From NCBI GenBank assembly GCA_017626015.1, contig JAGAJO010000012.1, forward strand, positions 62,001 through 126,000: 64,000 bases of DNA, read 5' to 3'. The position numbers were made by a program, and so were the translations under genes. The notes under the pieces were generated by a model. It was not told the origin of the DNA and did not search any database. It worked only from the letters and a program-made list of their open reading frames with translations. Positions 8,368 through 63,073 of the stretch are shown piece by piece. The number at the start of each line of letters is the position of its first letter. Position 1 is the stretch's first letter. The stretch is from Ruminococcus sp. GTDB lineage: Bacteria > Bacillota > Clostridia > Oscillospirales > Ruminococcaceae.

Positions 8368-8481
8368 GATCAATTTTCAAAATTCCGAACAAAAACTTTG
8401 TATTTATTCGTTGTCCTTTATTACGGATAAAAGTACGATAATCTGTTATAATTGAAATGCTTGATCGTTAAAATTGATTTC
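8368..8481 (-). repeat. Interspersed repeat family 1, copy A
   Basis: Read on the minus strand it begins GAAATCAATTTTAACGATCA and ends TTTGAAAATTGATC, with internal ATTATAACA, TCGTACTTTTAT, AAAGGACAAC and TTTTTGTTCGGAAT in the same order as the copy at 62920. The left half of the palindromic core is missing. The copy lies between the phosphatase operon and the thiamin operon. Confidence 0.75.
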
Positions 8482-8504
8482 CGTGGAAAATCCGACTGCG
8501 GATA

Positions 8505-8533
8505 TTGACAATTGCTGCGGAATGTGGTATTAT
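8505..8533 (+). promoter_or_regulatory. Thiamin operon promoter TTGACA-17-TATTAT
   Basis: TTGACA at 8505-8510 and TATTAT at 8528-8533, 17 bp apart. Transcription would start near 8540, shortly before the TPP riboswitch. Confidence 0.75.
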
Positions 8534-8557
8534 TAATTTATAAATTGTATAATGTAA

Positions 8558-8654
8558 GATTTGCAGGGGGACCCCAAGGCTTGCGTCTGCGGTTGAGAAG
8601 ATAAAATCTGACCCTTTGAACCTGTCGGTTAACACCGTTGTAGGAAGCAAAAAT
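8558..8654 (+). ncRNA. TPP riboswitch (THI box)
   Basis: The conserved THI-box blocks appear in order: GGGGGACC (5' arm), GCGGTTGAGAA (the CUGAGA region), GACCCTTTGAACCTG, and GGTTAACACCGTTGTAGGAAGC. Together they form the thiamin pyrophosphate aptamer. A terminator at 8668-8696 and then thiD follow, so TPP binding is expected to favour termination. Confidence 0.95.
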
Positions 8655-8667
8655 GTTGAGATCTCAT

Positions 8668-8696
8668 ACGCTTTCCTTTACGGAAGGCGTTTTTTT
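8668..8696 (+). terminator. Riboswitch expression-platform terminator
   Basis: ACGCTTTCC pairs with GGAAGGCGT (one G-U) and is followed by TTTTTT. It lies between the TPP aptamer and the GGAGG of thiD, the classic attenuation layout. Confidence 0.9.
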
Positions 8697-8711
8697 GCAG
8701 GAGGATAGAAT

Positions 8712-9530
8712 ATGAAAAAATGTCTTTCAATAGCAGGCTCCGATTGTTCGGGCGGAGCGGGTATACAGGCTGATCTTAAAGCCTTTTCCGCTAACGGAGT
8801 TTTCGGCATGAGCGTTATAACCTCTGTAGTAGCTGAAAATACGAGCCGTGTGATATCGGTTTTCAACGTCCCAGCGGCTGAGATAGAAAATCAGATCGAC
8901 GCAGTTTTCGAGGACATTGAAGTGGACGGAGTAAAGCTGGGTATGCTCCCCTCGGCAGAAATTATTTGTACCGTATGTGCAAAGCTCAGTCAGTACAGAC
9001 CTCCGGTCATTGTATGCGATCCGGTAATGGTCGCCACCAGCGGAGACGCACTTACCACCGAAAATACTCTTTCGGCAATGAAGGAAAAGCTGTTTCCTAT
9101 GACAGATCTGCTCACGCCTAATATACCCGAGGCGGAGATCATTTCGGGAGTTAAAATAAGATCAATAGACGACTTCGACACAGCTGCGGCGGAAATCATG
9201 AAAATGGGTGTGAAAAATCTGCTCCTAAAGGGAGGGCATTTCAGAGGAGACTGTATAGATGTTCTGTATATGTCAGAGCCTGACTGTCACGGAAACGATA
9301 ATATTTCATTCTGCGCTCCCCATATCGACTCCCCCAACACTCACGGTACCGGCTGCACGCTTTCATCGGCAATAACTGCGAATCTCGCCAAGGGTGCGGA
9401 TATGTCGTCAGCTGTTGAAAGCGCCAAAAAATACGTTACAGAAGCTATCGAAAACTCTTTCACGGTAGGAAAGGGTCACAGTCCGGTAAATCATTTCTAC
9501 GACTACTACGGACTTAAGGGAATTTACTGA
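8712..9530 (+). CDS. thiD: Hydroxymethylpyrimidine/phosphomethylpyrimidine kinase
   Basis: A 272-residue ribokinase-fold enzyme that phosphorylates HMP to HMP-P and HMP-PP, the pyrimidine branch of thiamin synthesis. N-terminal SIAGSDCSGGAGIQADLK is the family signature for substrate binding. NTHGTGCTLSSAI near the C-terminus is the ATP/anion-hole motif with the catalytic region. Length matches ThiD. GCAGGAGG provides the ribosome binding site directly after the riboswitch terminator. It is the first gene of the operon, 13 bp before thiC, and is controlled by the TPP riboswitch. Confidence 0.95.
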   Translation: MKKCLSIAGSDCSGGAGIQADLKAFSANGVFGMSVITSVVAENTSRVISVFNVPAAEIENQIDAVFEDIEVDGVKLGMLPSAEIICTVCAKLSQYRPPVIVCDPVMVATSGDALTTENTLSAMKEKLFPMTDLLTPNIPEAEIISGVKIRSIDDFDTAAAEIMKMGVKNLLLKGGHFRGDCIDVLYMSEPDCHGNDNISFCAPHIDSPNTHGTGCTLSSAITANLAKGADMSSAVESAKKYVTEAIENSFTVGKGHSPVNHFYDYYGLKGIY

Positions 9531-9543
9531 AAGGAATAAGATC

Positions 9544-61328: not shown

Positions 61329-61347
61329 GAGCCGCCCGCACAAAATC

Positions 61348-61475
61348 ACGGAAATCAATTGTAACGATCGAGCATTTTAATTATAACAAAACATCGTACC
61401 TTTATCCGGCATATAGAAGTCTGAGTTGTTCTTTCCCCGCCGTACGGCGGGGAAAGAACAACAAATATGCGGAAC
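61348..61475 (+). repeat. Interspersed repeat family 1, copy C with perfect 38-bp palindrome
   Basis: Starts ACGGAAATCAATTGTAACGA and continues CATTTTAATTATAACAAAAC and TCGTACCTTTAT as in copy D. GTTGTTCTTTCCCCGCCGT followed by its exact inverse spans 61425-61462. The right end (AACAAATAT...AACAAAATT) is shortened relative to copy D. Confidence 0.8.
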
Positions 61476-61485
61476 AAAATTGCCG

Positions 61486-61518
61486 CAAAAAAGCAGGAAC
61501 GCCTTTAACGCTCCCGCT
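61486..61518 (-). terminator. Terminator of the transglutaminase gene
   Basis: AGCGGGAGCG/CGTTCCTGCT stem (two G-U) on the minus strand followed by TTTTTT. Confidence 0.7.
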
Positions 61519-61529
61519 TTAAGGTTTAT

Positions 61530-62837
61530 TTACTTGAGCTTTTCCGCAGCCTTTCCGTTCATTATATATGAAGCGCCGCCCCACGGATTTGACTCGGAAT
61601 ACTTAACGCAGAGAAAATTCCAGTCGCCGTCCTCGCCGTAGTTGCCCGTTTCCATAAGATAGGCTGTTCCGTTTATCTTTACCTCACCCCAGAAATGCTG
61701 CCACTGGTTTCCGTCCTCGTATCCCCGCCAGCCCTGTACAAGACTGGCATCATAGCCCAGATAGCACATCATTGCCACAAGTGCGCCGTTGTACTGTACA
61801 CATTGACCGGATCTGTAATTGAAAATTGCGTCAACATATGATTTTCCGGCAATGTTCCAGTAATCGTCGCCGCTTGCATATTTTACCTTCCTGTTTATCC
61901 ATTGGAGGGTGTAATCGATCTTCTGTCCTCTGGTCATTGAAGATGTAAAATGCTTTTGGGCAAAATTTTTAAGCGTGTTTATATCCGCAGCCGAAAGGTA
62001 TGCCGTGGAGGTCACGGTGGTCTTTCCCTGCCTGTTATAGACCTTATACGACTTCAACGCATTTTTCTTGGGAGCCGCATCGAGCCTTGCAATATATACG
62101 GAGCTGCTGGGGATATATTTGAATGTATCGCCGTCAGTCGTTGCGGAACGTACAGTGCTGTAATCTCCGTAGCTTTTTTTACCGTTTGCGTCAGACGCAA
62201 CGGCGCGCATTCTGAAATAATATTTCGTACCCTCGGACAGTCCCGTGATCGTATAGGAAAGCTTGTTTTTATCGTTAACGGTCTTTACCTGCCTCCAGGC
62301 AGAGGAACCTTCCTCACGGGTATAGATAACATATCCGCAGCCGTTGAGCTTGTTCCATTTAAGATTTACTGAATTGTTATTTTTTGAGATAGCAACAATA
62401 ACCGACTGAGCAGGCTTCGACACTGTGCGGCATATATTGCTGTCGCTGCTGAATACCTTTTTTCCGTTTACTATTTTATACGCTTTGACCTTGAAGCTGT
62501 ATCTCAGTCCGGGAAGAACGCCCTTGCTTGTAAAGCTTGTCGCAGAGGCGGAAGCTTTTCCCACGTTTATCCACCTGGGACAATTCTCGCTGTAGCGGTA
62601 AATGTAATATCCGTCCGCACCTGACACCTTTCCCCAGCGGATCGTTACATAGCTCTGTCCGCTCGTATAATTTGAATTTATATACGGCTTGCCAACACTG
62701 ACCGCCTTAGTCTCGGCAGCCTGCGCAGTTATCGGAGAAATAACCGACAGCGCCTTATCTGAGGGAACTGCGGCAAGACCGGCGGAAAAAGCGATACATG
62801 ACGCTGCAGCCGCTGCGATTTTCCTTTTAATGTTCAT
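61530..62837 (-). CDS. Secreted transglutaminase-like protein with two Fn3 modules
   Basis: A 435-residue exported protein. Signal peptide 1-~40. Two fibronectin III-like domains: SYVTIRWGKVSGADGYYIYR and SVNLKWNKLNGCGYVIYTRE. A C-terminal transglutaminase/protease-like core has the catalytic Cys in YRSGQCVQYNGALVAM, His in GNQWQHFWGEVKI and the third residue in YLMETGNYG. Such proteins act on the cell surface or on external peptides/polysaccharides; the substrate is unknown. The start at 62837 has GGAAGTG upstream, and the promoter is at 62870. Confidence 0.87.
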   Translation of the reverse strand: MNIKRKIAAAAASCIAFSAGLAAVPSDKALSVISPITAQAAETKAVSVGKPYINSNYTSGQSYVTIRWGKVSGADGYYIYRYSENCPRWINVGKASASATSFTSKGVLPGLRYSFKVKAYKIVNGKKVFSSDSNICRTVSKPAQSVIVAISKNNNSVNLKWNKLNGCGYVIYTREEGSSAWRQVKTVNDKNKLSYTITGLSEGTKYYFRMRAVASDANGKKSYGDYSTVRSATTDGDTFKYIPSSSVYIARLDAAPKKNALKSYKVYNRQGKTTVTSTAYLSAADINTLKNFAQKHFTSSMTRGQKIDYTLQWINRKVKYASGDDYWNIAGKSYVDAIFNYRSGQCVQYNGALVAMMCYLGYDASLVQGWRGYEDGNQWQHFWGEVKINGTAYLMETGNYGEDGDWNFLCVKYSESNPWGGASYIMNGKAAEKLK

Positions 62838-62869
62838 TTTTATCACTTCCAATTAGTATTATTTGTTTT

Positions 62870-62898
62870 ATTTTAGCATCTCTCGCCGCAAAAGTCAA
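62870..62898 (-). promoter_or_regulatory. Promoter TTGACT-17-TAAAAT
   Basis: -35 at 62893-62898 and -10 at 62870-62875 on the minus strand, before the transglutaminase gene. Confidence 0.7.
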
Positions 62899-62919
62899 TA
62901 GTTCAAGTAGAATATACGA

Positions 62920-63073
62920 GAAATCAATTTTAACGATCAAACATTTTAATTATAACAAAATATCGTACTTTTGCTCTGAGTATCGAAGCCTGAGTTGTCC
63001 TTTCCCCGCCGTACGTCAGGGAAAGGACAACAAATATATACAAAATTTTTGTTCGGTATTCTGAAAATTGATC
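62920..63073 (+). repeat. Interspersed repeat family 1, copy D (full length)
   Basis: Begins GAAATCAATTTTAACGATCA and ends TCTGAAAATTGATC (inverted AAATCAATTTT/AAAATTGAT ends). The core GTTGTCCTTTCCCCGCCGT and its near-inverse span 62994-63031 (two mismatches). Compared with copy C, a T-A pair in the stem is replaced by C-G on both sides. Confidence 0.85.

Follow-up and report, generated by a model that had tools for sequence, protein, structure and literature searches.

The stretch of DNA analysed here, the window, comprises 64,000 nt of a Ruminococcus sp. genome (assembly GCA_017626015.1, contig JAGAJO010000012.1, positions 62,001 to 126,000 of the forward strand) and carries an interspersed repeat family that is a miniature inverted-repeat transposable element (MITE), being short, bounded by terminal inverted repeats and devoid of a transposase gene. 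Four copies and a possible fifth end at 63140-63186 had been described in the initial annotation. Copies A to D were all found at those places, extended by a few bases when the CACG/CGTG tips are counted, and the fifth end proved to be a lone left end, E; all lie, as had been claimed, in gaps between the long open reading frames (ORFs) of the window. When the window was compared with itself, the best E value per pair among A-D ranged from 8e-35 (C-D) to 5e-12 (B-C), so their relatedness is not a matter of chance. Left and right ends are named throughout in the orientation of copy D.

8362..8485, minus strand: copy A, the reverse of D; one palindrome arm is retained at 8410-8419
40565..40688, minus strand: copy B, palindrome absent
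61347..~61469, plus strand: copy C, right end lost
61425..61462: palindrome of C, 38 bp, perfect
62908..62916, plus strand: left target-site duplication of D, TAGAATATA
62917..63079, plus strand: copy D, complete
62994..63031: palindrome of D, 38 bp, imperfect
63080..63088, plus strand: right target-site duplication of D, TAGAATATA
63169..63184, minus strand: copy E, a lone left end

The palindrome is thus present in C and D, halved in A and absent from B, as first annotated; its absence from B had been called clean, but several adjoining bases are also gone by eye. Another copy in the same genome, C1:80612, resembles B by eye in its loss of the palindrome.

The genome holds dozens of copies: a whole-genome search with copy D yielded further ones, with 65 match rows in the 2.42-Mb genome, a number that includes second self-matches of the palindrome; 40 of 52 candidate places were scored. 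Among 41 genomes, the own genome (G000) and 40 relatives, copy D matched only its own and one of the same genus (G003). The 16-bp end CACGGAAATCAATTTT was found at 94 places in the own genome when up to 3 mismatches were allowed, against 11 for a reversed-pattern control. Twenty-eight two-ended copies, each with CACGGAAATCAATTTT at both ends, were examined; most are 100-165 bp long and one is 184 bp. Their 9-bp flanks agreed on average at 6.25 of 9 positions versus 2.50 in 756 cross pairs, with agreement of at least 8/9 in 12 copies, and of at least 7/9 in 16 copies versus six cross pairs. At every other length from 3 to 14 bp, the stricter of these two thresholds was passed by 0-2 copies. The flanks are therefore target-site duplications, and the copies are insertions. 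This duplication list of 28 includes C10:125612, which has lost its right end, where the docking lists of 28 used below have C28:11622, and the lists also differ at a few end positions. Full-length copies in the own genome are 77-95% identical to D, which would be consistent with an old burst.

The main feature of the family, overlooked in the initial annotation, is its fixed docking upstream of promoters. An end was scored as docked if a TTGACA/TATAAT-like pair scoring at least 9/12 reads outward from it, with the -35 box 16-20 bp away. The left end was docked in 24 of the 28 two-ended copies and the right end in three (Fisher p ~2e-8). The corresponding rates were 1.0% for 20,000 positions drawn at random from the fetched stretches and 3.4% for shuffled flanks. 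With a wider range of 14-22 bp, 25 left and three right ends were docked (random positions, 1.7%), and the spacing of these 25 left ends was 18 bp in 16 cases, 19 bp in five, 17 bp in three and 15 bp in one. By position, the left-end profile is highest at 18 (mean 9.0), falling to 6.7 at 17, 7.4 at 19 and 4.2-5.9 elsewhere. One-ended copies were docked in 7 of 13 cases. In the window all five are docked, B by its right end and the other four by the left, and they face the following predicted promoters.

8505..8533, plus strand: TTGACA-17-TATTAT promoter, 19 bp from the left end of A; downstream lie a thiamine pyrophosphate (TPP) riboswitch (8555-8663) and then a phosphomethylpyrimidine kinase gene
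40519..40548, minus strand: TTGACA-18-TATAAT promoter, 16 bp from the right end of B, the exception in orientation; downstream lies a zinc-ribbon ORF
61300..61328, minus strand: TTGACA-17-CATAAT promoter, 18 bp from the left end of C; downstream lies a valyl-tRNA-synthetase-like gene
62870..62898, minus strand: TTGACT-17-TAAAAT promoter, 18 bp from the left end of D; downstream lies an fn3/transglutaminase-like gene
63203..63231, plus strand: TTGAAA-17-TATAAT promoter, 18 bp from the lone left end E; downstream lies an ORF without a Pfam match

Such a pattern might be thought to arise from random insertion, only copies upstream of promoters having survived while others harmed the host. Harmful insertions are generally purged, and the intergenic position of the window copies agrees with this. 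However, survival alone gives neither a spacing of 17-19 bp nor a single orientation in most copies, and the same spacing occurs in insertion sequence (IS) copies with perfect, recent-looking duplications, described next. We regard purging of random insertions as a highly improbable explanation.

The full-length transposon with the same ends that the initial annotation proposed to look for was found as a 1.23-kb IS in another genome of the genus, G023, and not in the own genome. Exact 16-bp ends lie ~1.23 kb apart in G023, and three of four delimited elements (L141-L143) are flanked by perfect 9-bp duplications. The transposase, of 372 aa, is intact in L141 and L142 and frameshifted in L143; the fourth element, L144, contains a second transposase-like gene that interrupts it, and 8 bp are common to its flanks. 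The partner transposase is assigned by its profile matches to the ISAs1 family: it scores 284.9 bits against NCBIfam transpos_ISAs1 (NF033564; cut-off 70) and matches Pfam DDE_Tnp_1 and DDE_Tnp_1_assoc, with an IS1634 match below cut-off. Docking is by the transposase-3′ end in all four copies, each at 18 bp from the -35 box, and in L141 the transposase stop codon lies inside the inverted end. In the L144 copy, at 1371-3630 of its locus, the interrupting gene looks IS1595-like by eye, and the 3′ end of the ISAs1 copy is still docked at a promoter. A fifth G023 copy, L192, has lost its 3′ inverted end, and so was left unscored; a TTGACA/TATCAT-like pair directly follows it. The 9-bp duplications, together with an IS of the same ends in a relative, bear out the initial view of the repeat as a MITE without its own transposase.

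Relatives of this IS were also found at 25 loci in a scan of named genomes, many of them titled Ruminococcus sp. The transposase 3′ end is reached at 22 loci, 21 of which have enough flank for scoring. Here 15 of 21 3′ junctions were docked, 14 of them at 17-19 bp, as was one of ten 5′ junctions; the undocked 3′ junctions are those of L169, L170, L172, L174, L175 and L178. Duplications agreeing at 8/9 or better were present in six of nine cases. The resemblance of the non-docking MITE end to some IS 5′ ends extends slightly past the 16 bases, and therefore the orientations of MITE and IS agree. Eleven loci hold more distant ISAs1 elements, most without convincing ends; identity is 28-39% for ten of them and 59-69% for L219. 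At L202, good ends and duplications are accompanied by a promoter-like pair ~20 bp from the 3′ end, and L184 has perfect ends and no convincing duplication, with a promoter-like pair at its 5′ end.

Elements of the p-MULT 3 group (ISLre2/TnGBS), like the ISKra4 lineage, are described as inserting in a fixed orientation upstream of σA promoters (PMC3942029), and the MITEs studied here resemble ISLre2/TnGBS in oriented, fixed-distance insertion upstream of σA-type promoters. A Mutator-type ISLre2/TnGBS transposase could accordingly be considered as their mover: the insertion habit is alike, as are the 8-9 bp duplications and the terminal C described for p-MULT 3 elements. Their distance to the -35 box is, however, 15-17 bp with a peak at 16 (PMC3942029), unlike the peak at 18 bp found here, and the IS with the same ends encodes an ISAs1 transposase rather than the Mutator-type enzyme of ISLre2/TnGBS and ISKra4. 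UPF0236/ISLre2 (PF06782) was not found in the own genome, and the profile gave one weak match (24.8 bits) in the 29 same-genus genomes, while finding 37 of 291 genomes of the class. That sole match, at L110, looks ISL3-like by eye. The profile-search negatives and the identity of the partner IS largely refute ISLre2 as the mover, which we consider most unlikely. Since its transposase is ISAs1, the element would work like the p-MULT 3/ISKra4 elements without being one of them.

The same 16-bp end was also sought with up to 2 mismatches in the 29 same-genus genomes. It was abundant in G020 (103 places), G003 (74), the own genome (55) and G014 (27), with single matches in most of the genomes. Elements with these ends and other interiors were read from 40 loci, a subset of all places, in G003, G014, G020 and G024. 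They comprise 20 distinct two-ended elements, and docking at 17-19 bp was seen at one end in 19 of these; the G003 elements of one type, five in number, consistently use the same end. The transposase protein itself had matches in 6 of the 29 genomes. Only G023 and G044 hold close relatives; G041 has a 72% fragment, and G005, G012 and G014 have only distant relatives (31-38%).

These observations suggest that the MITEs were very probably mobilised by an ISAs1-family transposase predicted to insert, in fixed orientation, ~18 bp upstream of σA -35 boxes. A transposase of the G023 type, or a lost close relative, would have moved the MITEs of the own genome in trans, finding promoters through bound RNA polymerase or the shape of promoter DNA. 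An insertion at this place, immediately beyond the polymerase footprint, would not disable the gene, and this would account for the many copies present. Several observations weigh against this interpretation. MITE and IS have little sequence in common beyond their ends, and the genomes richest in MITEs (the own genome, G003 and G020) yielded no ISAs1 transposase; a DDE_Tnp_1 profile search of the own genome likewise gave no match. The driver may have been lost from these genomes or be missing from the assemblies, of which that of G020 is 76% complete. Docking is also incomplete, failing in 4 of 28 two-ended copies, 6 of 13 one-ended copies and 6 of 21 IS junctions, and its orientation varies, copy B being docked the opposite way and 11 G020 elements docking by either end (seven and four). 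Finally, the promoters are predictions called by consensus match alone.

The central hairpin was considered separately, as the initial annotation had taken a stem pair changed on both arms between C and D to imply selection on the folded form. This change is confirmed and belongs to a set of 14 two-sided changes, which affect 8 of the 17 pairs among 22 palindrome-bearing copies; none of 500 shuffles reached this level. Over these copies 93.0% of stem cells pair, and the stems covary strongly. Compared with shuffled sequences, copy D also folds better whichever strand is taken (z -3.66 and -3.89). Families in G003 and G020 whose arms differ, as well as a second repeat family of the own genome, also carry CCCCGCC..GGCGGGG-type hairpins, a recurrence that would appear to exceed expectation for inert cargo. 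All of this would fit a structured RNA or regulatory hairpin that was spread by transposition and retained by selection on a fold that insulates or regulates the neighbouring gene.

Other features of the stems speak against such selection. Stem cells outside Watson-Crick pairing comprise 11 G-U, 12 A-C and 14 others, numbers that are small and favour neither strand, and transversions account for 5 of the 14 two-sided changes, including two neighbouring ones in a single copy. In two G020 elements (L234 1501-1657 and L246 1-156) the hairpin interiors are exact reverse complements over 35 bp between the same flanking arms. Homogenisation of arms and inversion of the spacer are described as products of template switching between inverted repeats (PMC8604942). 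The lack of G-U bias, the two-sided transversions and the 35-bp spacer inversion mean that the covariation fits DNA template switching; it is likely to be mutational in large part, and the evidence does not establish selection on the folded form. Docking is also seen in copies that lack the full hairpin (A and C1:80612), and no Rfam family was found at gathering threshold at the MITE copies. A retained RNA or regulatory hairpin thus seems unlikely, albeit a stronger contender than the alternatives above. Under transposition by an ISAs1-family enzyme the hairpin would be cargo, its matched arm changes likely arising from template switching between the arms. A role as an intrinsic terminator was rejected, no adjacent T-run being visible by eye in the copies inspected. 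The 38-bp consensus palindrome had no match in a search of named genomes.

The second repeat family lies at ~5660-5775 of the window with the hairpin GTGTATCTCTCCCCGCCTTCGGCGGGGAGAGATACAC, and related stretches are present in other fetched parts of the genome (for example C1, C2, C9, C10 and C23). A short AAGGCAATACCG...CGGTATTGCCT inverted repeat is located nearby, at ~5582-5636; similar pieces occur in other fetched stretches, and a sequence like it lies inside a G003 MITE copy (L154 807-1086).

Among known bacterial MITEs, RUP is short and intergenic, with inverted ends and no transposase of its own. Correia and similar bacterial MITEs are described in the same terms (PMC10969869). Unlike Correia and RUP, the MITEs described here keep a base-level spacing to host promoters, and no constant outward promoter was found within them, an exact TATAAT being present near the left end in some copies only. 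IS1548 of streptococci is listed as ISAs1 (PMC4422693), and one copy is reported 9 bp upstream of a putative lmb promoter, in a paper whose title names enhanced lmb expression (PMC2875397). This is a single described site, and the available passages of that paper describe no family-wide spacing, unlike that of the MITEs and IS reported here. Neither systematic promoter docking nor a MITE cloud, the two features that set the present elements apart from the ISAs1 family as published, was found described for that family in our literature search. As far as such searches go, base-level promoter docking is known from Mutator-type elements, and the ISAs1 case is new.

A broader possibility, which we put forward tentatively and think rather doubtful, is that ISAs1 (DDE, non-Mutator) in Ruminococcus independently evolved promoter-guided transposition, placing itself and MITEs with an insulator-like hairpin just upstream of the polymerase footprint and so rewriting the upstream edges of dozens of promoters. 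Docking in both ISAs1 elements and MITEs with the same ends would point to convergence on one safe landing place, and what a transposase sees at a promoter becomes a directly testable question. The MITEs may also serve to mark promoters, each docked copy flagging a predicted -35/-10 pair ~18 bp away. If ISAs1 transposition is indeed guided by promoters, a mobile element would have rewritten the upstream margins of many promoters in these gut bacteria.

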